A DNA stretch of 42,515 bases, taken from positions 1-42,515 of the forward strand of contig JACRBM010000073.1 of the NCBI GenBank assembly GCA_016219275.1, given 5' to 3'. Within the stretch, counting starts at the first letter, position 1, and the number at the start of each line of letters is the position of its first letter. This DNA comes from Chloroflexota bacterium (GTDB lineage: Bacteria > Chloroflexota > Anaerolineae > UBA4142). The translations under genes and the position numbers were made by a program. This document shows, piece by piece, positions 1-42,426 of this stretch. The notes below the pieces were generated by a model, which worked only from the letters and a program-made list of their open reading frames with translations, had not been told where the DNA came from and searched no databases.

Positions 1-6
1 ACTCAC

Positions 7-122
7 TTTTTGTCATTCTGAGGAGCGGCTCTTGAAAACACGCAACCAAGTGAATTCAAACAAGCGACGAAGAATCTCGCCAGTTGCTTGAGCGATCCTT
101 CGCTTCGCTCAGGATGACAAAG
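7..122. repeat. MITE-like element with imperfect terminal inverted repeats
   Basis: The left end (TTTTGTCATTCTGAG) and the right end (CTCAGGATGACAAAG) are near-perfect inverted copies. They bound about 115 bp with no gene. Near the right end, GATCCTTCGCTTCGCTCAGG follows the pattern of a non-autonomous repeat often seen in intergenic DNA of unrelated bacteria; that recognition is from memory. The element abuts the 5' end of the ABC binding-protein gene and supplies its only start codons. No target-site duplication is visible. Confidence 0.7.
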
Positions 123-1361
123 CGAGTTTTGCGCTTTTGCCTTTTTTGGCACGCGATGAGCGGTAGTCGCGGCGATGTGATCAAAGCGTTTGCAGAAGAT
201 TTCAACAAGACCAACAAGCATGGGATTACCGTCAAGCCCGAATTCACCGGCTCGTATGCCGAGACGGTCACTAAAGCGCTCGCGGCATACAAGACCGGTA
301 AGCCGCCGCACATTGTGCAAGTGTACGAAGTCGGCACGCAAACGATGCGCGATTCCAAAGCGATTATCCCGATCCACACGCTCAATCGCGGCGATGTAGA
401 TTTCGGCGATGTCGTTCAACCGATCGTCAAGTACTATAGCGTCGGCGGTCAAGTCGTCTGCATGCCGTTCAACAGTTCGACGGCGATGTTGTACTACAAC
501 AAAGACATCTTTAAGAAAGCCGGACTGGATCCGAACAAACCACCCACGACCTTTGATGAAGTGTACGACTACGGAAAGAAAATCGTGACGAGCGGCTCGG
601 CAAAGGGCGGTATTTCGTTCGGTTGGCCCGCGTGGATTTTTGAACAGATGTACGGCACGCACAATCAGTTGTTTGCGAACCAAGACAATGGACGAAGCGG
701 TCTCGCGAACGAGGTTTATATCAACAACGCGTTCGGCGTCAAGGTGCTGACGGAATGGCAAAAGTGGTCGAAGGACAAGGTGCTCGTGTACGGCGGTCGC
801 GAGTACGATGCGAACGCGCCGTTCCTCGCCGGCGAGTTTGCGATGCTCGTCCAATCCACGTCGAGTCTCGGCGGCATTCAAAACAGCGCCAAGGGCAAGT
901 TTGAAATCGGCACGACATTCTTGCCGCGAATGCCCGGTTATCCAACTGGCAACACTGTCGTCGGCGGTGGTTGTCTGTGGGTGATGAAAGGTCGTTCCGA
1001 TGCCGAAAACCTCGCGGCGTGGGAATTTCTCAAGCATGTCAACAAACTGGACAACCAGATCACCTGGCACAAAAAGACCGGCTATTTCCCGGCTACGAAC
1101 GTGGCGGTGCAATCGCTGATGAATGAGGGTTGGTTCGCCAAAGAACCAAACTATCTGACCGCGTTCATGGAAATTCTGGTCGGCGTGGACACACCCGCCG
1201 GGCGCGGTGTTCTGCTCGGTAACTTTGTCGAGATTCGCGATGTCGTCGGCGCGGCAATCGAAGAAGCGGTTGTGAATATGAAAGACCCCAAGACCGTTCT
1301 CGACGCGGCGCAAAGCAAGACGAATCAAGTTCTCAAAGATTACGCCGAAGTCAACAAGTAG
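114..1361 (+). CDS. ABC transporter substrate-binding protein, family 1 (UgpB-like), N-terminus truncated by a repeat
   Basis: This is the solute-binding subunit of an ABC importer for a sugar or glycerol-3-phosphate-like compound; it should sit outside the membrane and deliver ligand to the two permeases encoded next. Family-like sequence begins at FWHAMSGSRG and runs through the GSYAETVTKALAAYKTGKPP and MPFNSSTAMLYYNKD blocks to the C-terminus, matching a UgpB-type mature protein. What is missing is the signal peptide or lipobox: upstream of FWHAMSG the frame runs into the MITE-like repeat. The ATG at 114 and the TTG at 84 both lie inside that repeat and neither has a Shine-Dalgarno sequence, so the start is unreliable. 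Without a leader the protein would stay in the cytoplasm. The gene is either broken by the repeat or misjoined in assembly. The substrate is not determined by sequence. Confidence 0.85.
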   Translation: MTKRVLRFCLFWHAMSGSRGDVIKAFAEDFNKTNKHGITVKPEFTGSYAETVTKALAAYKTGKPPHIVQVYEVGTQTMRDSKAIIPIHTLNRGDVDFGDVVQPIVKYYSVGGQVVCMPFNSSTAMLYYNKDIFKKAGLDPNKPPTTFDEVYDYGKKIVTSGSAKGGISFGWPAWIFEQMYGTHNQLFANQDNGRSGLANEVYINNAFGVKVLTEWQKWSKDKVLVYGGREYDANAPFLAGEFAMLVQSTSSLGGIQNSAKGKFEIGTTFLPRMPGYPTGNTVVGGGCLWVMKGRSDAENLAAWEFLKHVNKLDNQITWHKKTGYFPATNVAVQSLMNEGWFAKEPNYLTAFMEILVGVDTPAGRGVLLGNFVEIRDVVGAAIEEAVVNMKDPKTVLDAAQSKTNQVLKDYAEVNK

Positions 1362-29842: not shown

Positions 29843-30424
29843 TTACGTCTTCGCTTCCTGCGCCAGGATGATCGCCTCGGCGATGTCCTTCATTGGCTTG
29901 CGCGTGTTCATGCTCATCTTTTGAATCTTGCGGAACGCCTCTTGCTCGGTCAATCCTTGTTGATCCATCAAGATGCCCTTGGCGCGATCCACCAACTTGC
30001 GCGTTTCGAGCGTTTCCTTCAGCCCGCCCATTTCTTTTTCGAGTTCGCGGAACTCTTGAAAGCGCGCGAGCGCAATGTCAATCGCCGGCGCGATCTCTTG
30101 TTCGCGGAACGGCTTGACGAGATAGCCGACCACGCCGGCTTCCTTTGCCCGCTCGACCAAATCGCGATGACTGTACGCGGTGAGCAGTAACACCGGCGCG
30201 ATCTTTTCCTGGGTCATCAGCTTCGCCGCCTCGATGCCGTCCATGTCCGGCATCTTGATGTCCATGATCACGACATCTGGTTTCAATTCACGCGCGGCAT
30301 TCACCGCGCTCAAGCCATCGCCGGCTTCGCCTACGACCAAATAGCCGAGATTGGTGAGCATCTCGCGCAAGTCGGTGCGAATGACCGATTCGTCGTCGGC
30401 AATGATTACTCGGGTTCGTTCCAT
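29843..30424 (-). CDS. ANTAR-domain response regulator
   Basis: A regulator of 193 residues that probably acts on RNA. Receiver domain: RVIIADDESVIRTDLREML with acidic pocket Asp10/Asp11, phospho-acceptor Asp55 in VVIMDIKMPDMDG, Thr82 and Lys104 (YLVKPF). After a helical linker, the ANTAR domain (about 130-190) reads LETRKLVDRAKGILMDQQGL and EAFRKIQKMSMNTRKPMKDI. ANTAR proteins, once phosphorylated, bind paired hairpins in leader RNAs and prevent termination. Its start overlaps the histidine kinase gene by 19 bp, and the pair corresponds to the PdtaS/PdtaR arrangement. No paired-hexaloop target is found in this window by eye. Confidence 0.93.
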   Translation of the reverse strand: MERTRVIIADDESVIRTDLREMLTNLGYLVVGEAGDGLSAVNAARELKPDVVIMDIKMPDMDGIEAAKLMTQEKIAPVLLLTAYSHRDLVERAKEAGVVGYLVKPFREQEIAPAIDIALARFQEFRELEKEMGGLKETLETRKLVDRAKGILMDQQGLTEQEAFRKIQKMSMNTRKPMKDIAEAIILAQEAKT

Positions 30425-31923
30425 TCTTCGCCTCCAAGCGGAATCTTGGGAAAGCGCACGATGGCGGAAACGCCATGGTCGCTTGTCATATCGAATTGAC
30501 CTTTGAGGTCCTGGGTCACTAACATTTGAACGATTCGCAGACCGAGCGAATCGAGTCGTTCTAGATCAAAACCGGGCGGCAGTTCTTGCCCGTCGTCGTG
30601 CACGACGATCCGCACCGCATCGCCGTCGTCGTGAAAGGTCAGCGAGATCGTGCCGCCTTCCGCGCGCGCATCATAGCCGTGCTCCAACGCGTTCTGCAAC
30701 AACTCGTTGATGACGAGCGCGCAACTCGTCGCTTGGCGCGCCGGCAAGTACATATTCGGTCCGGCAAGTTGCAGCGCGAAATGGCGCGCCGGATCGAGAA
30801 CGCCGGCTTGCATCTGCGTCAAGATGCGTTGCGCGACCTCGCGAATATTGATCACGCGCGAATCTTGCGCCGACAAGAATTCGTGAATCACCGCGATGCT
30901 GAGAATGCGATTGACCGCTTCGCCGAGCGCGCCCTTGGCTTCGGTCGTCTGCATGCGGCGCGATTGCATCCGCAATAGCGACGCGACGGTTTGCAAGTCG
31001 TTCTTGACGCGATGATGCATCTCTTTGATCATCGTCGTCTTGACGAGCAGTTCGCGCTGGCGACGCCGCGCGTCGGTCGCGTCGTGAATCAGCAGAAACG
31101 CGCCGGCGGGTTGCGCGCGCGTGCCGCTGAACAGCGCGCCGCGTTCGTACCGCACAAGCGGAATTGCCTTTTTAATCCAGGTGCGCCCGCGCTCTTCGAT
31201 TTCGAGTTGCGCGCACGTGCGTTCTTTGATCGCGCGGCTCACCAACTCGTCGTCGTGCATTTCGAGATAACTGAGCAGTTTGCCGGCGAGCGGTTCGCCG
31301 TAGCCGATGTTGCGATACAAATTCACTGCGATGCCGCTCATGTAACGAATCACGCCCTCGGCGTCCATCAACAAAATGCCGTCGTGTTCGCCGAACGGCG
31401 CGAGCGTTTCGATGCCCAGCGGCTCGCCGCGCAGAGTCATCTGTTGAAACAACCTGAGTCCGCGCTGAAAAAACTCGCTGCGCCGTTTGAGCCGTTCGCT
31501 TTCGAGCAGGTTCGTTTCGATCAACAAACCGCCGATCACTTTGCCGGTCGAATTCTCGATCGGGTACGCTTCCTGGACGACCGGCGCGAGCGCGCCTTCG
31601 GACGATGTGTGATCGGAAATCGCGTAATCGCGCTGTGTGCGGATGTACTGTCGTTCGGTCAGGGCGCGAAAGAGCGCGTTCGCGTTCGCGCGATTCAAGT
31701 CGCCGCCGGCGAGCGTCTCGCGATGAATCGGCACGACCGAATGCGGTCGCGCCTGCGCGAGGATTTCGACGCGCGCGTTGCCGCGCAACGCGCCGAGAAA
31801 AATATCCGCGCGACTCAGGTCGGCGAGCAGAGGAATCACACGCGCGCTGTTCGCCAAAATCGTGTCATCGCGGGTGAGCGGTTTGGATTCCTGGACTTGG
31901 ACTACGCTGTCTATTTGTCCCAT
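30406..31923 (-). CDS. Sensor histidine kinase, PdtaS-like (HisKA_2 type)
   Basis: Soluble sensor kinase of 505 residues, partner of the ANTAR regulator. Order of domains: an N-terminal GAF-like sensor (about 10-145; LSRADIFLGALRG, ALFRALTERQYIRTQRDYAI), a PAS domain (about 175-290; FGEHDGILLMDAEGVIRYMS), then HisKA_2 with EMHHRVKNDLQTVASLLRMQ (phospho-His near 304), and the ATPase with N-box INELLQNALEHG (near 406) and G-box GLRIVQMLV. The HHRVKN box is the hallmark of the family that pairs with ANTAR proteins. ATG at 31923 is the best start, as frames further upstream enter the terminator; the Shine-Dalgarno is weak. No membrane segment, so the signal is cytoplasmic. Confidence 0.92.
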   Translation of the reverse strand: MGQIDSVVQVQESKPLTRDDTILANSARVIPLLADLSRADIFLGALRGNARVEILAQARPHSVVPIHRETLAGGDLNRANANALFRALTERQYIRTQRDYAISDHTSSEGALAPVVQEAYPIENSTGKVIGGLLIETNLLESERLKRRSEFFQRGLRLFQQMTLRGEPLGIETLAPFGEHDGILLMDAEGVIRYMSGIAVNLYRNIGYGEPLAGKLLSYLEMHDDELVSRAIKERTCAQLEIEERGRTWIKKAIPLVRYERGALFSGTRAQPAGAFLLIHDATDARRRQRELLVKTTMIKEMHHRVKNDLQTVASLLRMQSRRMQTTEAKGALGEAVNRILSIAVIHEFLSAQDSRVINIREVAQRILTQMQAGVLDPARHFALQLAGPNMYLPARQATSCALVINELLQNALEHGYDARAEGGTISLTFHDDGDAVRIVVHDDGQELPPGFDLERLDSLGLRIVQMLVTQDLKGQFDMTSDHGVSAIVRFPKIPLGGEEWNEPE

Positions 31924-31951
31924 TTCATCTACAAACGGTTTGGAATAAAAT

Positions 31952-31977
31952 AAAGCCGAGGTGATGCGCCTCGACTT
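31952..31977 (-). terminator. Terminator of tRNA-Pro
   Basis: On the minus strand AAAGTCGAGG pairs with CCTCGGCTTT (10 bp, one G-T pair) and is followed by ATTTTATT. It lies about 65 bp downstream of the tRNA 3' end. Confidence 0.7.
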
Positions 31978-32040
31978 TTCATTTACGAGTCCAAGATGCG
32001 ACCTCTCGGCGCTGAGGGGAGGCATCCAAGACTAGGAGTG

Positions 32041-32261: not shown

Positions 32262-33932
32262 ATGAAGAACCCACTATTCGCTGTTTCGGTTTTGATCGTG
32301 ATCACAGCTCTTGCCGCGTGTAGCGCGCCTACGCAACCACTCGCGCCAACCGCCCTACCGACGAGCCAACCGGCAAGCCCAACGGTTGCGCCGCCAACCA
32401 TCGTCCGCGCCAACGATCCAACTACCCAACCACCCAGCACCCCAACTACCCAACCAACCAACCAACCAACTAAACAACCCAACATCATTTTCATTCTCAC
32501 CGACGATTTGGACGCGGCGTCCATTCCCTTCATGCCCAAACTCAAATCGTTGATGACCGACCAGGGTACGACATTCACCAACTTTTTCATCAACATGCCG
32601 CTCTGCTGTCCCTCGCGCACCGAAATTTTGCGCGGACAGTACGCGCACAACACCCAGATTCTCGGCAACACGCCGCCGTCCGGCGGATTTCAAAAATTTT
32701 TCCAACTCGGCGAAGAGCAATCCACGATTGCGACGTGGTTGCAGAGCGCGGGTTATCGCACGATGCTCGCCGGCAAATATCTGAACGGATATCCGGATCG
32801 TTCCAACTTGATGTATATTCCGCCGGGCTGGACGGAATGGTACAGCGCGATGAAAGGGAACGCGTACGGCGAATACAACTATACCTTGAACGAAACCGGC
32901 AAACAGGTTGCATACGGCAACAAGCCGGAAGATTACGGCACCGATGTGTACGCGCGCAAGACCGCGGATTTCATTACGCGAACAGCCAAAGACGGGAAAC
33001 CATTTTTCGCGTACGTGTCGGTGTACGCACCGCACGGTCCGGCGACGCCCGCGCCGCGCCACGAAAAAATGTTTCTCGATGTCACCGTGCCGCGCTCGGC
33101 GAATTTTAACGAAGACGATGTGAGCGACAAACCGGCGTACATCCGCAATCGTTCCAAACTGACCGCGCGTGAAATCACGCGCTTGACCGAGGACTATCGT
33201 AAGCGTTTGCAATCGTTGCAAGCGGTGGACGACATGATCGAAACACTCGTCAACACGCTCAAGACGACCGGGCAACTCGACAACACGTACATCTTTTTCA
33301 CATCGGACAATGGTTTTCACCTGGGCAATCATCGCCAGCTGACCGGCAAGGTCGCGCCGTACGAAGAAGAAATTCGCGTGACGATGATCGTGCGCGGACC
33401 CGGCGTACCCGCCGGCAAATCGCTCGACTACTTGACCGGCAACATTGACCTCGCGCCGACTTGGGCAGACCTTGCGGGCGCGACTGCCCCAGGTTTTGTG
33501 GATGGTCGTTCGCTCGCGGCATTGTGGAGGAGCAATCCGCCGCGCGAATGGCGACAATGCTTCCTCGTCGAGAATGGTTTGATCACTTCGCAGATTCAAA
33601 CGCGCGCCGCGCGCCAAGTGGTCAACACACCGCCCGAGTTGCTCGAACCGCCGGACGCGGATGACGAGGAGGCGGCGACGCCGACTGCCGCCAACCGCGC
33701 GCCGCTCGGCGTGCCATCGTATCGCGGTCTGCGCACAAACGATTATCTCTATGTCGAATATGTCACCGGCGAAAAAGAGTTGTATAATATCAAAAGCGAT
33801 CCGTACGAATTGCAGAACCTCGCGGCAAAAGCGGACGCTGCCTTGTTGACTCAACTCGCTGCGCGGCTCAAGCAGATGACGACGTGCGCGGGCGCGAATT
33901 GTCGCACGACCGAAAACGTCTTGTTCAAGTAA
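32262..33932 (+). CDS. Sulfatase, lipoprotein
   Basis: A lipid-anchored sulfatase of 556 residues that removes sulfate esters, probably from polysaccharide outside the cell. The signal peptide ends in a clear lipobox ALAAC (Cys20). A Pro/Thr/Gln stalk (about 22-72) follows. The catalytic domain starts NIIFILTDDLDAA with metal-binding Asp81/Asp82 and holds the formylglycine motif C-C-P-S-R at 115-119 (CxPSR type), so Cys115 needs a maturation enzyme not encoded here. FTSDNGFHLGNHRQLTGK near 350 gives further metal and His ligands; the C-terminus shows the usual ELYNIKSDPYELQNLA. ATG at 32262 has GGGAG 8 bp upstream. The stalk is encoded partly by a CCAA tetranucleotide tract. Confidence 0.93.
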   Translation: MKNPLFAVSVLIVITALAACSAPTQPLAPTALPTSQPASPTVAPPTIVRANDPTTQPPSTPTTQPTNQPTKQPNIIFILTDDLDAASIPFMPKLKSLMTDQGTTFTNFFINMPLCCPSRTEILRGQYAHNTQILGNTPPSGGFQKFFQLGEEQSTIATWLQSAGYRTMLAGKYLNGYPDRSNLMYIPPGWTEWYSAMKGNAYGEYNYTLNETGKQVAYGNKPEDYGTDVYARKTADFITRTAKDGKPFFAYVSVYAPHGPATPAPRHEKMFLDVTVPRSANFNEDDVSDKPAYIRNRSKLTAREITRLTEDYRKRLQSLQAVDDMIETLVNTLKTTGQLDNTYIFFTSDNGFHLGNHRQLTGKVAPYEEEIRVTMIVRGPGVPAGKSLDYLTGNIDLAPTWADLAGATAPGFVDGRSLAALWRSNPPREWRQCFLVENGLITSQIQTRAARQVVNTPPELLEPPDADDEEAATPTAANRAPLGVPSYRGLRTNDYLYVEYVTGEKELYNIKSDPYELQNLAAKADAALLTQLAARLKQMTTCAGANCRTTENVLFK

Positions 33933-33968
33933 CGGATCGTAGGGCAATAGACATTATCGGGAATAAGA

Positions 33969-34043
33969 CCTTTCTCGCCAAGCCGCCAAGAACGCCAAGT
34001 TTTTTTAAGATGATTCTTTGCGTGCTTTGCGTCTTGGCGAGAG
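33969..34043. repeat. Inverted repeat CTCGCCAAG / CTTGGCGAG
   Basis: CTCGCCAAG (33974-33982) is followed by related GCCGCCAAG and GAACGCCAAG units, a T-run, and the inverse CTTGGCGAG (34033-34041). The 199-bp gap between the sulfatase and hydrolase genes holds no gene. Confidence 0.65.
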
Positions 34044-34131
34044 GTAAAAGTTGTTTCCGATAAAGTCTAATTTTCCAGAATTGCCAAACAAAATCCGCGT
34101 GTGGCGAAGATAGGGTGAAAAGAGATCGCGT

Positions 34132-35331
34132 ATGAAACAGTTTGCTCTCCTAGTCCTGGTTTTGATCGCGACGGCGTGCGCGACCTCCACCCGCGCGCCG
34201 ACCACCTTACCTCCACTCACACCGGTTCCACCCACGTTGACGGAACTCGCCCCGACCCAAGCCGCGCCCGGCGAGGTGGTGCGCGTGATCGGCAAAGGCG
34301 GATATCTTTTCACGCCGCCCAGTGGTTACAACGAATCCGCGCGCGACTGGCAACTGGTGTTCGATGGCAAGCCGGTCGCGCGGCTCAATTGCATGAGCAA
34401 TCATTGCGAAACGCAAATGACGGTGCCGACAGACGCGACCGCGGGCGCGCACGAAATATCCGTCGAAGGTGGTTCGAAACTCGCGTTGCAAGTAGTCGTG
34501 AAAACCGCGCGCGCGACACCCAAACCGGTTCCCTCGCCGCAATCCGCTGACGCGCCGAATTCGTACTGGGTGACGAATCCGATGAGCAACGCGCACTTGT
34601 TCGTCCAACTGATCGTGCCGAAAAACACGGGCGGCAAGTTGCCGACGCTCGTTCTCGTTCCGGGTGGAATCGGGGCGAGCAACAATTTTACTGATTTGCC
34701 GTATCGCGCGCAAACGTTTGCCAATGCCGGATTCGCGGTCGTCGTGTTCGACCCCGATGGACGCGGCAAGAGTAGCGGCGTCGAAAACTATGACGGGCGC
34801 GCGCACCAGGACGGTCTCGCCGCGATTCTCCGATTTGTCGCGACCCTGGATCAGGTGGATGCGAAAAAAATCGGACTCGTCACGTACTCGTACGGCATTA
34901 CGATGGGAACCGGCGCGCTCGCGCGCCATCCCGATGTGCCGGTGAAATTTTTGATAGACTGGGAAGGTCCGGCGAATCGCAATAACACGACCGGGGGTTG
35001 TCGCGCCAATACGCCGGGCGGCATTCAATGGCAGTCGTGCGCCGACGAAGGATTCTGGCGCGAGCGCGAAGCCGTGAATTTTATTGCCAGGGTGCGCGTA
35101 CCGTACCAGCGCATCCAATCCGAAATAGATCACGTTCAGCCGGACAATTCGCACGCGCTCGCGATGGTCAACGCGGCGGCGCAAGCTAAACTGCCATTCG
35201 TGCGCTTGAACGACGATTCGCCAAATCAAATCTATGATCCTGCCGCGCCGCCCGCGATGTTGCCCGAACTTCAAGACCGCAAACTCGAATCGCGCATCAT
35301 CAAGTACGCGCAAGAGTTGTTCGCCCGATAA
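34132..35331 (+). CDS. Lipoprotein alpha/beta-hydrolase with TYSYG nucleophile elbow (paralogue A)
   Basis: A secreted hydrolase of 399 residues. The signal peptide ends LIATAC (Cys16, an acceptable lipobox). A Pro/Thr stalk leads to a small beta domain (about 40-125; PGEVVRVIGKGGYLFTPPSG with Cys87/Cys92). The alpha/beta-hydrolase domain starts TLVLVPGGIG, then FDPDGRGKSSG, the nucleophile elbow VTYSYGITMG (Ser253; the usual first Gly of GxSxG is Thr), DWEGP (Asp276) and SEIDHVQPDNSHAL (His334). It is clearly paralogous to the gene at 37047, which lacks the beta domain. Substrate unknown; an ester or acyl group of a polysaccharide fits the neighbourhood (sulfatase upstream, GH39-like gene downstream). 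The start is the first Met of the signal; ribosome site weak. Confidence 0.78.
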   Translation: MKQFALLVLVLIATACATSTRAPTTLPPLTPVPPTLTELAPTQAAPGEVVRVIGKGGYLFTPPSGYNESARDWQLVFDGKPVARLNCMSNHCETQMTVPTDATAGAHEISVEGGSKLALQVVVKTARATPKPVPSPQSADAPNSYWVTNPMSNAHLFVQLIVPKNTGGKLPTLVLVPGGIGASNNFTDLPYRAQTFANAGFAVVVFDPDGRGKSSGVENYDGRAHQDGLAAILRFVATLDQVDAKKIGLVTYSYGITMGTGALARHPDVPVKFLIDWEGPANRNNTTGGCRANTPGGIQWQSCADEGFWREREAVNFIARVRVPYQRIQSEIDHVQPDNSHALAMVNAAAQAKLPFVRLNDDSPNQIYDPAAPPAMLPELQDRKLESRIIKYAQELFAR

Positions 35332-35364
35332 CGCCGGGCTGACAAATCTTGCGGATCGTTTCGT

Positions 35365-35388
35365 AGGGGCGTTCAATTGAACGCCCCT
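35365..35388. repeat. Perfect 24-nt palindrome
   Basis: AGGGGCGTTCAATTGAACGC followed by CCCT reads the same on both strands. It lies in a 257-bp gap without a gene, which also carries degenerate ATGCGAA/TTGCGAG repeats near 35505-35535 but no clear promoter. It could work as a weak bidirectional terminator. Confidence 0.65.
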
Positions 35389-35588
35389 TCTGCATAGTAT
35401 GTGAATTGACGAAGCGGCAACAAGAAATTTACGCGCCGATTACACGCGACTCAGGTCGCTCTCATTTGCGGATGAGACAATCCGCGCAAGAGTTGTCGTG
35501 GGAAATGCGAAATGCGAATTGCGAGTTGCGTGAACCATAAACGCGTTCGTCACACATCGCGCCTCACACATCACTCGACGGAGACACA

Positions 35589-37037
35589 ATGACCAGGACA
35601 TTCCTTGCTCTCAGCGGACTTGTTCTCATCGCGACCGCGTGCGTCCCCACACCAACGCCGACCGCGCAGCCAACGCCGACAGCGACCGCATCATCTAATT
35701 TACGCGCGCAATCCAATACACCAACGGCAACTCGCATCGCCGCGCGCGCGCAGGTTACGATCACGCTAGGCGCGGCGATGGACGCGCCGATCAATCGCTT
35801 GCTTGGCGTGAACATCGGACCTGTGCCCGCCGGGTCGGATCCGAAAAACGCTGACCTGGCGAACGCGTACAAACAAATCGGCGTCAACCTGGTTCGCACG
35901 CACGATTTTTACGGACCGCTTGACATGGCGGTGATGTATCCCGATCGCGCGCGCGATCCCGCCGATCAAAAATCGTACGATTTCACCAAGAGCGATGCGA
36001 TATGGCGCGCCATCGTGAACGGTGGATTCGAACCGTACTTGCGCCTCGGCGATTCGTACAATAACGCCAAGCCGCCGGCGAACGCGCAGGAACGCGCGAA
36101 CTGGGTCAAGGCGGCAGTCGCGGTGATTCGGCATTATCGCGAAGGCAAGTGGAATGGATTCACGACCCAGTTTCGCTACGTCGAAATCTGGAACGAGCCG
36201 GACAATCAGCAATTTTGGAGCAAGCCGCGCACGGCGCAAGAGTATTTCCAATTGTACGACGAGACCGCGCGCGCGCTCAAGCAAACCTTCCCCGATCTGA
36301 TCGTCGGCGCGCCGGGATTGACGCCGGCGGGCGCGCTCGCGCCGCAGGGCAAAAAGTGGACCCAGGATTTTCTCGATTACGTGAGACAGAAGAACGCGCC
36401 GCTCGATTTCTTTTCCTGGCACATGTACTCGAACGATCCGAACGATTGGGCGAACGCCGCGCAATTTTATCGCCGCGAACTCGACGCGCGCGGATTTACC
36501 AAGACGGCGCAACACGTCACCGAGTGGAACACCCAGACCAAATCCGACGCGATGAAAGGCGCGGAGGCAACCGCGCTGCGCACCAGCGGACAAGGCGCGG
36601 CGATTCTCACCGCGGCGTGGATCGCGATGCAACAAAACGGCGTCGCGGTCGCGACGTTTTATCGCGGTCCCGATCCGGCGCTGGACGCGCCGACGTTCTA
36701 TGGTATGTTTTACGCGGACGGCAAACCGAAACGAATCGCGCTCGCGTTTTCGCTATGGACCAAACTCGCCGATCATCCGCAACGCGTGAATGTGTCCGCC
36801 GCGCCGAACACCTCGCTGTGGATGCTCGCCGGAAAAAACGATGCGGGCGAAAGTGCGTTGCTGATCGCGAATCCAACTGCCGCGGCGACCACGTACTCGA
36901 TAGCGGGCGCGGAAAATCGCGCGACCACGATCTGGCAGGTGAACGACGCGAGCGCGCAAGTTCAATCGCTCGCGTCGCCGGGAGCCGTGATCGAAATCGG
37001 CGGCAACACGATGCAACTCGTGATCCTCAAAAAATAA
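35589..37037 (+). CDS. Glycoside hydrolase (GH39-like), lipoprotein
   Basis: A lipid-anchored glycosidase of 482 residues. Signal peptide MTRTFLALSGLVLIATAC (Cys18), then a Pro/Thr stalk to about residue 55. The TIM-barrel domain reads LLGVNIGPVP, GVNLVRTHDFYGPLDMAVMY, EIWNEPDNQQFW with acid/base Glu203, and HVTEWNT with nucleophile Glu312; the WNEPD and TEW motifs fit clan GH-A, and the layout is closest to GH39-like xylosidases and iduronidases. A C-terminal beta domain follows (about 390-482). The ATG has GGAG about 8 bp upstream. The first 18 codons are nearly the same as in the gene at 38134. It sits between the two hydrolase paralogues; exo-type attack on a heteropolysaccharide is the likely role, with the linkage unknown. 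Confidence 0.85.
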   Translation: MTRTFLALSGLVLIATACVPTPTPTAQPTPTATASSNLRAQSNTPTATRIAARAQVTITLGAAMDAPINRLLGVNIGPVPAGSDPKNADLANAYKQIGVNLVRTHDFYGPLDMAVMYPDRARDPADQKSYDFTKSDAIWRAIVNGGFEPYLRLGDSYNNAKPPANAQERANWVKAAVAVIRHYREGKWNGFTTQFRYVEIWNEPDNQQFWSKPRTAQEYFQLYDETARALKQTFPDLIVGAPGLTPAGALAPQGKKWTQDFLDYVRQKNAPLDFFSWHMYSNDPNDWANAAQFYRRELDARGFTKTAQHVTEWNTQTKSDAMKGAEATALRTSGQGAAILTAAWIAMQQNGVAVATFYRGPDPALDAPTFYGMFYADGKPKRIALAFSLWTKLADHPQRVNVSAAPNTSLWMLAGKNDAGESALLIANPTAAATTYSIAGAENRATTIWQVNDASAQVQSLASPGAVIEIGGNTMQLVILKK

Positions 37038-37046
37038 GGAGCATCC

Positions 37047-38078
37047 ATGAAACGCACACTTGTTTGCGCAATGCTCGTCCTGGTTTTCGTTGTCGCGTGC
37101 AATTCCAGCGCGCCACAATCCACGCCGGTTCCCGCCGAAATCAAACCGGCGGCGACGGATAACCTGGGACAACCAGCGCAGAAAGTTCCGCCCCAGTCGC
37201 CCGCGCAAAAACCGGGTGGGACGCCGCTGCCCAAACCCGGCGCGAATTTTACCCCGCCGGCGAAACCTGGGGCGAACATCACGCCGCCGCCGCTTGCCGA
37301 TAGCGTCGCAAAAACGTACTCGGTGACGAATCCGACGACGAACGTGAAATTGTACGTACAAGTGTTCGCGCCCAAAGATGCCGCCGGCAAAAAATCTCCC
37401 ACGCTTGTCCTCGTCCCCGGCGGCACTGCCGATACCAACGCATTGATCGGCGACGCACTGCGTTTCTCAAGCGCGGGCATCCTCGCGGTGATTTTCGATC
37501 CGGATGGTCGCGGCAAAAGTACGGGACAAGAAGATTTCAACGGGCACAAGCAACAAGACGGTCTCGCCGCGGTCGTTCGCTTTGCCGCGACGTTGCCCGA
37601 AGTGGACGCACAACAAATCGGCATTGCGACGTACTCGTACGGCATCACGATGGGTAGCGGCGCGCTCGCGCGTTACAGCGATCTCCCGGTAAAATTCTTG
37701 ATGGACTGGGAAGGTCCGGCGGATCGCAACTATACGACGACGGGTTGTCGCGGGACTGGCGCGAATCGAATTCAGTGGCAACCGTGCACGGACAATGTTT
37801 GGTGGGCGGAACGCGAGGCGGTGAATTTCATCGGCAAAATTCGCGTGCCGTACCAACGCGTCCAATCGGAAAAGGATCACGTTCAGCCAAACAACAATCA
37901 CGCGCTTGACATGATCAACGCGGCGATCAAAGGCGGTGTTTCCTTCGTGCGGCTCAACAATCTCGCGCCGAATCAAACGTACGATGTAAAAAATCCACCC
38001 CCGATGTTGCCCGAAATGACCAACCCGCAATGGGAGCAAACGCTGATTCAATTCGCGCAAGAGTTGTTCAAACGATGA
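37047..38078 (+). CDS. Lipoprotein alpha/beta-hydrolase with TYSYG nucleophile elbow (paralogue B)
   Basis: A secreted hydrolase of 343 residues, paralogue of the gene at 34132. The lipobox is VVAC (Cys18). The stalk (about 20-88) contains a direct repeat, KPGANFTPPA then KPGANITPPP. The hydrolase domain reads TLVLVPGGTADTN, FDPDGRGKSTGQEDF, ATYSYGITMG (Ser197), FLMDWEGPADRN and SEKDHVQPNNNHALDM. TYSYG, DWEGPA and DHVQP are kept from paralogue A, so they probably form the catalytic set. The extra beta domain of A is missing. It starts 9 bp after the GH39-like stop with AAGGAGC before the ATG, so the two are co-transcribed. Ends in a hairpin of the GTGATGCG type. Confidence 0.78.
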   Translation: MKRTLVCAMLVLVFVVACNSSAPQSTPVPAEIKPAATDNLGQPAQKVPPQSPAQKPGGTPLPKPGANFTPPAKPGANITPPPLADSVAKTYSVTNPTTNVKLYVQVFAPKDAAGKKSPTLVLVPGGTADTNALIGDALRFSSAGILAVIFDPDGRGKSTGQEDFNGHKQQDGLAAVVRFAATLPEVDAQQIGIATYSYGITMGSGALARYSDLPVKFLMDWEGPADRNYTTTGCRGTGANRIQWQPCTDNVWWAEREAVNFIGKIRVPYQRVQSEKDHVQPNNNHALDMINAAIKGGVSFVRLNNLAPNQTYDVKNPPPMLPEMTNPQWEQTLIQFAQELFKR

Positions 38079-38123
38079 AAAGTGATGCGTGACGAACGCG
38101 CTCACGCACCACGCATCACTTTT
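38078..38123 (+). repeat. Hairpin AAAAGTGATGCGTG / CACGCATCACTTTT, terminator-like
   Basis: Perfect 14-bp arms (38078-38091 and 38110-38123) around 18 nt, ending in TTTT, between the hydrolase and esterase genes. The GTGATGCG unit is also found at 9022-9042 and, in inverse form, inside the glycosyltransferase gene at 40509-40530. Confidence 0.7.
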
Positions 38124-38133
38124 CGGAGGCATA

Positions 38134-39096
38134 ATGACCAGGACATTCATTACTCTCTTCGGACTTGTTCTCATCGCGACCGCGTGTAATGCCGCGCCGA
38201 CTACGCGACCACCTGACCAAGCGACAACACGACCATCCGACCACGCGTTACTCAAACCGGGTGATTACGACCGCGCGCTCACCCATGCCGGACGCGAACG
38301 CACGTACACGGTGCACTTGCCGCGCGGCATCGGCGACGAACATTCGTATTCGCTCGTGATCGTTTTGCACGGCGGCGGCGGCAACGACGATAACGCCGCG
38401 CGTATGACCGGGTTTAGCGCGCTCGCGGACAAGGAAGAATTCATCGTCGTCTATCCGAATGGAACCGGACGATTGCAAGATCGTATTCTCACCTGGAATG
38501 CCGGCAACTGTTGCGGTTACGCGCTCGACAACACGGTGGACGATGTGGGATTTATTCGCGCGCTGATCGAACAATTGCAACGCGAGTACCCGATCAATCC
38601 GCAACGCATTTACGCGACCGGGATTTCAAACGGCGGAATGATGTCCTACCGACTCGCGTGCGAACTGTCCGACCAACTCGCGGCAATCGCGCCGGTCGCG
38701 GGCGCGCTCAACGTCGAATGCAAACCCGCACAGCCCGTCGCGGTGATCGCATTCCATGGCACAGCAGACCAACACGTTTTGTACAACGGAGGCGTTCCAA
38801 AAATCCAAGCCGACTCGCATCCGCGCGAGGACAAGTCGGTCGCGTACGCGATGTCGTTCTGGGTCAAGCAGAATCAATGCAACACGCTCGCGCAAAAATC
38901 GGAACGCGGTAAGGTGAGCACTGAATCGTACACGAGCTGTCGCAATAACGCGGATGTGACGTTGTTCACGCTGAAAGATTTCGGACACGCTTGGCCCCGC
39001 GGCGCGCGTGGAACGGTGTGGGCGGACGATCCGAAGGCGGATATTTCCGCGACCGATGTGATGTGGGAGTTTTTCAAGCAACATCCGAAACCGTAA
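38134..39096 (+). CDS. PHB-depolymerase/feruloyl-esterase-like lipoprotein esterase
   Basis: A lipid-anchored esterase of 320 residues of the PhbA/LpqC group (CE1-like). Signal MTRTFITLFGLVLIATAC (Cys18). The core shows LVIVLHGGGGNDDNAARMTG (oxyanion region), TWNAGNCCGYALDNTVDDVG, the nucleophile elbow YATGISNGGMMSYRLACELS (Ser165), VIAFHGTAD with the acid, and LKDFGHAWPRG with the His. Cysteines at 126-127 and later may form disulfides. ATG at 38134 has GGAGG 6 bp upstream. Such enzymes release feruloyl or acetyl groups from hemicellulose or cut polyesters; beside a GH39-like glycosidase and a sulfatase, deacylation of polysaccharide is more likely. Confidence 0.88.
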   Translation: MTRTFITLFGLVLIATACNAAPTTRPPDQATTRPSDHALLKPGDYDRALTHAGRERTYTVHLPRGIGDEHSYSLVIVLHGGGGNDDNAARMTGFSALADKEEFIVVYPNGTGRLQDRILTWNAGNCCGYALDNTVDDVGFIRALIEQLQREYPINPQRIYATGISNGGMMSYRLACELSDQLAAIAPVAGALNVECKPAQPVAVIAFHGTADQHVLYNGGVPKIQADSHPREDKSVAYAMSFWVKQNQCNTLAQKSERGKVSTESYTSCRNNADVTLFTLKDFGHAWPRGARGTVWADDPKADISATDVMWEFFKQHPKP

Positions 39097-39120
39097 CGCA
39101 AATTTCCAATCGGAGATAGG

Positions 39121-39147
39121 ATCCAGGTTTCTTCGAGAAACCTGGAT
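39121..39147. repeat. Palindrome ATCCAGGTTTCT...AGAAACCTGGAT
   Basis: Perfect 12-bp arms around TCG, 27 nt. It shares the CCAGGTTT/AAACCTGG core with 23171-23203. It lies between the esterase stop and the small membrane-protein gene. Confidence 0.7.
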
Positions 39148-39174
39148 TCTGATGAAGGTATTGAAGGAGCAGCC

Positions 39175-39342
39175 ATGTTTCGACCACGCCGCTTTTGGCG
39201 ACCGCGCCCGATGTTGTGGCGCGGCAGACCGCTGGGACGACGCATCTATGGAATGGGGTGTTCGCTGATCGCCTTCCTGGTCCTCGCGTGTATCGTCGGA
39301 ATGTTCTTGTTGAATGTTTTCGTGCGCGGTATTCTGCGATAA
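39175..39342 (+). CDS. Small single-span membrane protein
   Basis: A protein of 55 residues: an Arg/Trp-rich head (MFRRPRRFWR-like; actual start MFRPRRFWRPRPMLWRG) followed by one hydrophobic helix (CSLIAFLVLACIVGMFLLNV) and a short tail FVRGILR. By the positive-inside rule the head stays in the cytoplasm. ATG at 39175 has AAGGAG 6 bp upstream, a strong signal. It starts 78 bp after the esterase and ends 25 bp before the PMT-type glycosyltransferase, on the same strand, so it may belong to that unit. No family is recognised. Confidence 0.65.
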   Translation: MFRPRRFWRPRPMLWRGRPLGRRIYGMGCSLIAFLVLACIVGMFLLNVFVRGILR

Positions 39343-39367
39343 GCAAGACACCCATCCCGGAGCGACT

Positions 39368-41395
39368 ATGGAAATCACTGCCAATGATGTAACGATTACG
39401 CCGATCACGCGATCAACCGTGACCGCGCGCGTGTTTCAATATTTTTCTCTCAGCGCGATTCTTTGCCTCGCGCTCTTTTTGCATTTCTTCCGGCTCGACC
39501 AAGAAGGATTCGCAAATCTATACTATGCCGCGACGGTAAAGAGTATGCTGATGAAGTGGCACAACTTTTTCTTCGCGTCGTTCGATCCCGGCGGGTTCGT
39601 GACCGTAGACAAACCGCCGCTCGGTTTGTGGATTCAGGCGTCGAGCGCGACGATATTTGGATTCAGCGGTTGGAGTTTGCTTTTGCCGCAAGCGATTGCC
39701 GGCGTATTGTCGGTCGCGCTGTTGTATCATCTCGTCGCGCGCGTGTTTGGCGTGTGGGCAGGCGTGATCGCCGCGCTCGCGCTCACCGTGACGCCGATCA
39801 GCATCGCCGCGAATCGCAACAATACGATGGACAGCCAACTCGTGTTCGTGTTGCTGCTCGCCGCGTGGATGGTGATGCTGGCAATCGATCGCGGGCAATT
39901 GCGTTGGTTGCTCGCGAGCGCGATTCTGGTCGGCATCGGCTTCAACATCAAGATGCTCCAGGCATTTATGGTGCTACCCGCGTTCTGGCTCGCGTATCTG
40001 ATCGCGGCGCGCACGAAATGGTATTGGCGCGTCGCACATCTTGCCGTCGCGACCATCGTGCTTGCGTTTGTTTCGTTCGCGTGGGTGGTCGTCGTTGACC
40101 TCACGCCGGCGGATCAACGCCCGTTCGTCGGCAGCAGCAAAGATAACACCGAGATGGAATTGATCGTCGGGCACAACGGCTTGGCGCGACTTGGCGCGAT
40201 GGCAAGTTGGCTCGGTTTGCGAAACGCGCCCATGCCAGGGCAACGACCACAAGCCGCGCAACCGGCGATCAAACCACAATTCAATCCACCGCCGGGTCAA
40301 CTCGCCCAACCCCCGCGATTCCAACCGCAACCCGGACAACCCGCGCCCAACGCGCCCGCGCCCGGCGGCGGTCCGACGAGCAACGAAACCGGCGACCCAG
40401 GAATTTTCCGGCTATTTAACAAGCAACTCGCTGGACAATCCAGCTGGCTTTTGCCGCTCGCGTTGCTGGGAATGCTTGTGCTCGCCATCGAATTATTTTT
40501 GGCGCGTCACGATTCACGCATCACGCATCGCGCGTCAAGCAACACGTTCCAATCCTGGTTGCTCTGGTCCGGGTGGCTCGTTCCGCAAATCATCTTTTTC
40601 AGTTTCGCCGGCTTGTTTCATCGCTACTATCTCGAAATGCTCGCGCCCGCGCTCGCCGCGCTCGTCGGCGCAGGCATTGCCGCGATGTGGCACGCGTACG
40701 CGCGACGCGAGTGGCGCGGCATCTTTTTGCCCATCGCGATTCTTGCGACGGCGGCAGTCCAGGCGATCATTCTTTTGCAATTTGCGCAATGGAATGGTTG
40801 GTTGATGCCGGTGGTGATGGGACTGGGCGCGCTCACCTCCAGCGCGTTAATGATTTTGTTTCTGTTGCCGCGCCATCCTGCCATTCAAATCGCGCAATGC
40901 GCGTTTGCCGTTGCCGGCGTGCTGGCTCTGCTGATCGCGCCGACGGTGTGGTCGTTCACGCCGTTGATGAGCGCGGATTCCGGTTTGCCGTTCGCCGGAC
41001 CCGAACTCGCGACGCGTCCCTCGCGACCGGCGAATCTGCCGAACGAAAATCGGCTGATCGAGTACTTGCGCGCGAATCGCGGCGGCGCGAAATTTCTCGT
41101 TGCGACGATGAACGCGAATACTGCCGCGCCGCTCATTCTCGCGACCGGCGAGCCGGTGATGACGCTCGGCGGTTTTGGCGGGAACGATCAAATTCTGACG
41201 CCGGAGCAACTGTCCGCGCGCGTCGCGCAGAACGAGGTGCGTTTCTTTTGGCTCGCGTCGCAAGCAAATCAGAACGCCGATCTGACGCGCTGGGTGAGCG
41301 AGCATTGCGCGCGCATCGTTCAGCCCAACCAACCCCAACCCGCGCCGAATCCGGGCAGCGCACAAACGTTGTACGATTGCGCGCGCCCGCGATAA
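39368..41395 (+). CDS. PMT-family (GT39-like) membrane glycosyltransferase
   Basis: A polytopic membrane protein of 675 residues. The N-terminal half has eight or more helices and the family pattern: RLDQEGFANLYYAATVKSML with the acidic catalytic Asp-Glu region, FVTVDKPPLGLWIQA, ITPISIAANRNNTMDSQLVF. A Pro/Gln-rich loop (about 280-345) interrupts two membrane blocks; further helices follow (about 360-535) and an extracellular C-terminal domain (about 550-675) with FLVATMNANTAAPLILATGE. This matches PMT_2/ArnT-like enzymes of the YkcA/YkcB type, which move a sugar from a polyprenyl-phosphate carrier to surface acceptors. A repeat-derived stretch lies at residues about 379-392. ATG at 39368 has GGAG 6 bp upstream. 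It may glycosylate the Pro/Thr stalks of the neighbouring lipoproteins, which is inference. Confidence 0.9.
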   Translation: MEITANDVTITPITRSTVTARVFQYFSLSAILCLALFLHFFRLDQEGFANLYYAATVKSMLMKWHNFFFASFDPGGFVTVDKPPLGLWIQASSATIFGFSGWSLLLPQAIAGVLSVALLYHLVARVFGVWAGVIAALALTVTPISIAANRNNTMDSQLVFVLLLAAWMVMLAIDRGQLRWLLASAILVGIGFNIKMLQAFMVLPAFWLAYLIAARTKWYWRVAHLAVATIVLAFVSFAWVVVVDLTPADQRPFVGSSKDNTEMELIVGHNGLARLGAMASWLGLRNAPMPGQRPQAAQPAIKPQFNPPPGQLAQPPRFQPQPGQPAPNAPAPGGGPTSNETGDPGIFRLFNKQLAGQSSWLLPLALLGMLVLAIELFLARHDSRITHRASSNTFQSWLLWSGWLVPQIIFFSFAGLFHRYYLEMLAPALAALVGAGIAAMWHAYARREWRGIFLPIAILATAAVQAIILLQFAQWNGWLMPVVMGLGALTSSALMILFLLPRHPAIQIAQCAFAVAGVLALLIAPTVWSFTPLMSADSGLPFAGPELATRPSRPANLPNENRLIEYLRANRGGAKFLVATMNANTAAPLILATGEPVMTLGGFGGNDQILTPEQLSARVAQNEVRFFWLASQANQNADLTRWVSEHCARIVQPNQPQPAPNPGSAQTLYDCARPR

Positions 41396-41415
41396 CCAAT
41401 TGATGGAGCACTGAA

Positions 41416-42426
41416 ATGAAACGCCTTTGGATTCTCCTTTTCCTTTTTGCATCAAGTTTGATGTTCGCTGGTTGTCAGCGCAACCGGAATGATTCTGCCG
41501 CGCCATTGCCTACGGCTGAGATGCGCGCGAGTGGTGTTGCGCCAACCGTCGCACCACGCGCGATTGAAACGCCCGTCGCCTCACCAAGCGCGCCGGTGAC
41601 CCAGGAAATAGACACGCGACCGGGCGCGATGAATCGCGATGTGACGTACTGCGCGCCGGACGGCATCGCGCTAAAGATGGACCTCGCGTACCCCAAATCG
41701 TTTGCGAACAAGCCCACGCCGATTGCCGTGTTCATTCACGGCGGCGGCTGGACGAGCGGCGACAAGAGCGGCGGCGGCGGAGTGGACGCGCGCGAGTTGC
41801 TCGCGCGCGGGTACATTGTCGCGTCGCTCGATTATCGGCTTGCGCCGCAGTACAAATTCCCGGCGCAGATCACCGATGTGAAATGCGCGATTCGCCATCT
41901 GCGCGCGCACGCGGCGAAATATCAACTCGACCCGAACCGGATTGGTGTGTGGGGTTCAAGCGCGGGCGGGCATCTCGTCGCGCTGCTCGGCACGAGCGAT
42001 GCGAGCGTGGGATTCGACGTGGGCGAGTACCTCGATCAATCGTCGCGCGTGCAACTTGTTGTGGACTTGTTCGGTCCCGCCGATTTGCCGGCGATGTTCA
42101 CGTCGAACGCGCAAGTGGTTGGCAATCGCGTGTTCGGCTCGACCTCGCGCGACGATCTAGTTTTGGTCAAGGCAAGTCCGGTGACGTACGTTTCCAAAGA
42201 TGATCCACCGTTTTTGATCTTGCAAGGCGATCAAGACAAGACTGTGCCGCTGGCGCAATCGCAAATTTTGCACGACAAGTTGCTCGCGGGTGGCGTGCCG
42301 TCCACGCTCGTCATCGTTAAAAATGGCGGTCACGGTTTCGCACCAACCGGCGGTGCGATCAACCCGACGCGCGCCGAGTTGACCAAGACGCTCGCGGATT
42401 TTTTCGACAAGCATTTGAAAAGGTAG
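41416..42426 (+). CDS. Alpha/beta-hydrolase (BD-FAE / esterase-lipase type) lipoprotein
   Basis: A secreted esterase of 336 residues. Signal peptide ends in MFAGC (Cys20), then a Pro/Ala/Thr stalk to about residue 70. The domain is of the hormone-sensitive-lipase-like or bifunctional feruloyl/acetyl-xylan esterase type: VFIHGGGWTSGDKSGGGG (HGGG at 108-111), YIVASLDYRLAPQYKFPAQI, nucleophile elbow VWGSSAGGHLVALLG (Ser182), LILQGDQDKTVP with the acid and IVKNGGHGF with the His. ATG at 41416 has GGAG 8 bp upstream. It follows the glycosyltransferase by 20 bp and likely shares its message. Likely substrates are acetyl or feruloyl esters. Confidence 0.9.
   Translation: MKRLWILLFLFASSLMFAGCQRNRNDSAAPLPTAEMRASGVAPTVAPRAIETPVASPSAPVTQEIDTRPGAMNRDVTYCAPDGIALKMDLAYPKSFANKPTPIAVFIHGGGWTSGDKSGGGGVDARELLARGYIVASLDYRLAPQYKFPAQITDVKCAIRHLRAHAAKYQLDPNRIGVWGSSAGGHLVALLGTSDASVGFDVGEYLDQSSRVQLVVDLFGPADLPAMFTSNAQVVGNRVFGSTSRDDLVLVKASPVTYVSKDDPPFLILQGDQDKTVPLAQSQILHDKLLAGGVPSTLVIVKNGGHGFAPTGGAINPTRAELTKTLADFFDKHLKR

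Follow-up and report, generated by a model that had tools for sequence, protein, structure and literature searches.

The window analyzed here, 42,515 nucleotides in length, is the entire contig C73 of a 6.16-Mb Chloroflexota genome that is 98% complete, and the host is an Anaerolineae-type Chloroflexota. Inspection of positions 32,262 to 42,426 reveals seven large open reading frames (ORFs) on the plus strand, each matching curated families. In order, they encode a sulfatase (SULF), an alpha/beta hydrolase (ABHa), a GH39-type glycosidase, a second alpha/beta hydrolase (ABHb), a PHB/LpqC-type esterase, a GT-C glycosyltransferase with PMT_2 and YkcB_C domains, and a BD-FAE-type esterase (Table 1). 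The initial annotation had named seven large genes of these families, and both the positions and the profile matches bear it out.

Table 1. Genes of the cluster and its divergent neighbors, in window coordinates.
Feature	Coordinates	Strand	Evidence
ANTAR response regulator	29843..30424	-	PF00072 + PF03861
PdtaS-like histidine kinase	30406..32025	-	PF12282, PF07568, PF02518; divergent neighbor of the cluster
Sulfatase lipoprotein (SULF)	32262..33932	+	PF00884, 186.6 bits, 8.6e-55; lipobox LAAC
Alpha/beta hydrolase lipoprotein (ABHa)	34132..35331	+	PF02129/PF00561; lipobox
GH39-type glycosidase lipoprotein	35589..37037	+	PF01229, 80.5 bits, 1.5e-22
Alpha/beta hydrolase lipoprotein (ABHb)	37047..38078	+	paralogue of ABHa; lipobox
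PHB-depolymerase/LpqC-type esterase lipoprotein	38134..39096	+	NF050058, 184.9 bits (cut-off 150); lipobox
Small basic one-helix membrane protein, 55 aa	39175..39342	+	
GT-C glycosyltransferase, ~12 transmembrane helices	39368..41395	+	PF13231 (PMT_2), 116.5 bits; PF24878 (YkcB_C), 93.2 bits
BD-FAE-type esterase lipoprotein	41416..42426	+	PF20434, 210.5 bits, 2.7e-62; lipobox

To identify lipoprotein signals, a lipobox scan resembling Prosite PS51257 was applied across the window. A lipobox is found in six of the seven cluster genes versus none of the 24 other window genes (Fisher p = 1e-5), confirming the earlier view that six of the seven products are surface lipoproteins. The Pro/Thr stalks that had been ascribed to all six are well represented in four: in the 60 residues that follow the Cys, proline and threonine account for 47% of positions in the sulfatase and 32% each in ABHa, GH39 and ABHb. 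The description fits the two esterases, PHB-type and BD-FAE, weakly, with only 22-23%. The GH39 (window 35589-35690) and PHB-type (38134-38230) proteins have nearly identical signal peptides and lipoboxes, MTRTF...GLVLIATAC, with 56% identity over residues 5-47, which suggests local duplication or recombination of the 5' ends.

Two ORFs open upstream of their assigned starts. The PHB-type ORF opens at 38089, where the lipobox makes 38134 the most likely start, and the PMT_2 ORF opens at 39314, where the start was moved to 39368 with orthologues beginning near codon 19. The orthologue comparison behind this start excludes loci L048 and L049. The 55-aa membrane protein, overlooked in the initial annotation, has counterparts immediately downstream of the PHB-type gene in two relatives, G001 (71% over 41 aa) and G002 (a related ORF), and a Pfam search with it returned no match. 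Intergenic gaps of 9, 10 (55 with the later PHB-type start) and 20 bases suggest two likely transcription units, GH39-ABHb-PHB and small gene-PMT_2-BD-FAE, while larger gaps measure 199, 257 and 217 bases. These units are drawn from gap lengths, since a promoter and terminator scan gave counts near the shuffled expectation.

The sulfatase combines a PF00884 domain with the modification motif C115-C-P-S-R119 (general form C/S-x-P-x-R) and metal residues D81, D82, D349 and N350, which identifies it as a type I (S1) sulfatase. Across ten orthologues that are 57-75% identical, C115-x-P-S-R119, D81, D82, K172, H258, D349, N350 and K363 are invariant. The best-matching solved structure is a GlcNAc-6-sulfatase (PDB 5g2v), which shares with this protein and other S1 sulfatases the Sulfatase domain, the C/S-x-P-S-R motif and the metal ligands. 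Unlike 5g2v, the cluster protein is a stalked lipoprotein, and the alignment is broken into separate stretches that reach only 144 bits. A search of this genome with the sulfatase gives just two matches, as opposed to 26 or more in likely specialists. Maturation would be provided by an anaerobic sulfatase maturase encoded on contig C91 of the same genome (TIGR03942, 506 bits; cut-off 349). A canonical FGE was considered for this role and rejected: of the 18 PF03781 matches, 15 of which span nearly the whole domain, none was found with the Cys pair, and the canonical FGE motif had no match in the 20 genomes searched. Judged by these motifs, the FGE-sulfatase domain in this genome would serve another purpose. 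Six family genomes (G001 and G007-G011), some of them incomplete, keep the sulfatase with an intact Cys motif, and the same six gave no maturase above the cut-off and no canonical FGE motif. A stalked lipoprotein of ~1000 aa lies upstream of the sulfatase in G001, G006, G007 and G010 (locus L113, 2656-5676; also L040, L108 and L110); it has no known Pfam family and is absent from the corresponding place in the window.

The glycosidase is assigned to GH39 by its PF01229 match and by motif, with a predicted acid/base Glu in WNEPD and a predicted nucleophile Glu in TEWN. It matches PDB 5z3k (7.7e-29) and GH39 xylosidases, and both Glu residues are conserved in G002 and G007. The BD-FAE-type esterase matches PF20434 over its full length and carries Ser, Asp and His in GSSAGG, GDQDKTVP and GGHGF, respectively. 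Membership of the PHB-type esterase in NF050058 does not imply PHB as its substrate. Active-site motifs are intact in the sulfatase, GH39, and the PHB-type and BD-FAE esterases.

The two alpha/beta hydrolases, ABHa and ABHb, share 58% identity as paralogues, and both have the nucleophile motif TYSYG. The match to peptidase S15 (PF02129) exceeds the cut-off and is partial, covering profile positions 5-173 or 3-114 of 262. An N-terminal domain of ~100 aa (window 34216-34527) is private to ABHa: Pfam gave no match to it, and none of the other fetched loci has a homologue. An AlphaFold2 model of ABHb (pLDDT 89.5) adopts the alpha/beta hydrolase fold. The nearest structure is the Chloroflexus esterase 7qjm (Z 25.7, rmsd 2.7, 232 residues, 18%), with which the DcsB thioesterase and feruloyl esterases tie. 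Since many alpha/beta hydrolases score at similar Z, the substrate cannot be read from the fold.

In alpha/beta hydrolases, the loop carrying the catalytic His comes after strand 8. Inspection of ABHb places S124 at the nucleophile elbow after strand 5 and D204 after strand 7. The loop after strand 8 (231-252) opens with an invariant Asn231 and contains no His at all in 31 of 34 sequences. The only near-invariant histidines, H205 and H212, both follow strand 7. The motif D204-H205-x-Q207 (D-H-x-Q) after strand 7 is invariant, which is partly built in because the motif was one of two search patterns; a nine-sequence alignment from an unbiased search also shows this invariance. E149, after strand 6, is invariant as well. 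When ABHb is aligned by profile with ordinary hydrolases, D204 coincides with their usual acid, and no His falls at the position of their base. The comparison with 7qjm and the feruloyl esterase 7z2x (Z 25-26, 228-232 residues aligned) is thus one of shared fold, nucleophile Ser after strand 5 and Asp after strand 7. In contrast to these two structures, at 16-18% identity, ABHb lacks a His after strand 8 and has an invariant D-H-x-Q and a nearly invariant H212 after strand 7. Enzymes of this fold are described as carrying the catalytic acid either behind strand 7 or where strand 6 ends, and a flexible loop of its own bears the His (PMC7034887). Either the base has been relocated or the proteins are inactive; putative activity is favored because Ser, Asp and His are invariant, and the pair are probably esterases whose catalytic His is displaced. 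We put forward tentatively that they represent an undescribed alpha/beta hydrolase clade, found mostly in Anaerolineae, in which the His has moved from the strand-8 to the strand-7 loop, perhaps with E149 as the acid. For the two TYSYG hydrolases of the initial annotation, the fold, nucleophile Ser and Asp therefore stand, whereas their status as ordinary hydrolases is uncertain with the canonical His missing. A limited literature search returned no paper on a relocated histidine in alpha/beta hydrolases. A mobile origin was also considered, and a plasmid search with ABHb gave no match.

The glycosyltransferase has the composition of YkcB-type GT-C enzymes, namely a PMT_2 domain, a YkcB_C domain and about 12 helices, within the 8-13 of that type. 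Unlike YkcB-type systems, it has no adjoining GT-A (YkcC) or GtrA-type flippase gene and is surrounded by hydrolase genes. The initial annotation had suggested that this enzyme glycosylates the stalks, and O-glycosylation of the lipoproteins' Pro/Thr stalks would agree with gene proximity and with the Thr/Pro-rich composition of the stalks themselves. Against this, the protein O-mannosyltransferase domains PF02366 and PF16192 found no match in the protein, which by Pfam falls outside that family. Studied PMT_2 GT-C enzymes use undecaprenyl-phosphate donors to glycosylate teichoic acids and wall polysaccharides, and the role and acceptor of YkcB itself are unknown (PMC8035078, PMC5836110). Orthologues of the enzyme also occur where the neighboring stalk proteins differ. 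Stalk glycosylation is accordingly quite unlikely.

To learn whether the cluster is conserved, sixty relatives were searched with six cluster proteins and the neighborhoods were mapped, with linkage counted within 15 kb among 13 same-family genomes, out of those holding both genes. The PHB-type and BD-FAE genes are linked in 4/4 genomes, PMT_2 and BD-FAE in 5/7, PHB-type and PMT_2 in 3/4, and ABH and PMT_2 in 3/5. Assuming independent genomes, which is not fully the case, the chance of such linkage is 1.6e-10 for PMT-BD-FAE and 1.3e-9 for PHB-BD-FAE. The sulfatase stands mostly apart from the PMT/BD-FAE half (linked in 2/7), and GH39 orthologues (>60% identical) are confined to two other family genomes, one of which has the gene linked to the rest. 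G012 holds most of the set in ~17 kb, without GH39, in the order sulfatase-BNR-propeller-PrsW-ABH-PHB-BD-FAE-PMT. The order is ABH-PHB-PMT-BD-FAE in G002 and PHB-esterase-PMT-BD-FAE in G001, and G007 presents sulfatase-GH39-ABH with the same divergent kinase. Conserved clustering, on which the initial annotation had staked its reading, is therefore present as pair linkage that is kept while order is rearranged within the family. The cluster is genuine and conserved, and belongs to a generally known kind.

Gene content differs from relative to relative. Glycosidases in the relatives' clusters include a GH5 before the sulfatase (G010), a GH3 beside BD-FAE (G002), a GH10-like gene near ABH (G001) and BNR/GH32-like lipoproteins (G012, G007, G008). 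Further genes comprise ECF sigma/VWA (G001), a beta-propeller lipoprotein (G012), an extra PF00756 esterase (G001, G006) and PrsW-like proteins (G001, G006, G012). What is conserved is therefore the hydrolysis of glycans at the surface, by a gene set that is itself fluid, and the other glycosidases favor a polysaccharide as substrate. This fluidity, the frequent location of SULF and GH39 elsewhere, and the larger gaps that divide the run into several likely transcription units would also be expected of general-purpose surface hydrolases that share no substrate and adjoin by chance in a lipoprotein-rich genome. Such a chance neighborhood is nevertheless improbable given pair linkage far above expectation and the concentration of the window's lipoproteins in the cluster. 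The PdtaS-like kinase adjoins or stands near the sulfatase in G001, G007 and G011 too, and regulation of the cluster by this divergent kinase and the ANTAR regulator is possible, judging from proximity in four genomes.

Taken together, we consider it reasonably probable that the locus is a chromosomal group of lipoprotein enzymes that process a substituted polysaccharide at the cell surface, loose in organization and rearranged within one Anaerolineae family. Counting against this reading are the patchy occurrence of GH39, the frequent separation of the sulfatase from the PMT/BD-FAE half, the low number of sulfatase matches in this genome, the lack of an adjoining uptake system, and the six family genomes with a sulfatase and neither a maturase above the cut-off nor the canonical FGE motif. 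The enzymes are most likely exposed on the external side of the membrane, with stalks reaching into the wall. The anaerobic maturase would form formylglycine in the sulfatase, the sulfatase and esterases would take off sulfate and acyl esters, and GH39 would then cut the bared chain, with products entering via sugar ABC transporters. The PMT_2/YkcB_C enzyme would move sugar from an undecaprenyl-phosphate donor onto an envelope polymer and may be a functional neighbor rather than a stalk glycosylator. The surface stripping and cutting of a decorated polysaccharide envisaged in the initial annotation is upheld by the lipoproteins, by the clustering and by motifs that are intact in four of the enzymes (sulfatase, GH39 and two esterases); stalk glycosylation is not supported, and the part of the TYSYG pair is uncertain.

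Transport bears on whose polymer this is. The initial annotation had remarked on the lack of a Sus-type transporter, and no SusC/SusD domain is present in the seven cluster genes or in the exporter gene on contig C77. This absence is expected and uninformative, Chloroflexota being considered monoderm and devoid of BAM/LPS genes (PMC13319060). No uptake system adjoins the cluster; an ABC sugar-type transporter is found 29 kb away. The contig ends 89 bases past the BD-FAE-type gene, and the final 203 bases of the window overlap C77 at 99%, where the sequence continues into an ABC exporter gene; an ABC exporter also lies near BD-FAE or PMT in G008 and G009. These neighbors are consistent with remodeling of the cell's own envelope, in which a secondary wall polymer or exopolysaccharide glycosylated by PMT_2 would also be de-esterified, desulfated and trimmed at the cell surface by the lipoprotein hydrolases. 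PMT_2 and BD-FAE form the tightest conserved pair, with the PHB-type esterase close by, and enzymes of the PMT_2 GT-C class modify wall polymers (PMC8035078). The cluster lacks a GT-A partner, flippase or polymerase, however, and the variety of GH5, GH3, GH10-like and GH39 enzymes better suits breakdown of varied foreign polymers, so we regard envelope remodeling as possible and somewhat doubtful. In short, the exporter and PMT_2 neighbors favor the cell's own polymer, whereas the changing glycosidase set favors a foreign one. The linkage of PMT_2 offers a way to test whether YkcB-type enzymes serve the same polymer as the adjoining esterases.

Polysaccharide processing at the surface would align the cluster with Gram-positive polysaccharide utilization loci and CAZyme gene clusters, where glycosidase, sulfatase and carbohydrate-esterase-like genes are likewise clustered and their products surface-anchored. 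In contrast to those loci, neither a sugar transporter nor a dedicated glycan sensor adjoins this cluster, its members include a GT-C glycosyltransferase and two hydrolases without assignment, and its content is fluid. What is known of glycan processing at the surface of uncultured Anaerolineae comes mostly from gene counts, and the cluster provides a defined enzyme set with family-level conservation. New here are the 55-aa membrane-protein gene and the hydrolase clade without a strand-8 His but with D-H-x-Q after strand 7; the clade is most worth a bench test.

Repeats were also noted. Contig C77 overlaps both window ends (203 + 125 bases), and a circular element of 45.5 kb was considered on that basis. 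It was rejected because the 125-base stretch is repetitive and turns up at, or close to, the ends of several further contigs. Window positions 1-125 are common to contigs C11, C33, C46, C72, C74 and C77, mostly at contig ends. A solute-binding protein ORF (84-1361) starts inside this repeat and shows no evident signal peptide, so that the repeat at this end of the contig seems to have truncated the gene or become fused to it. Positions 219-338 of C77 form a ~120-base imperfect palindrome, MITE/REP-like, with some 30 genome copies at 92-98% identity.
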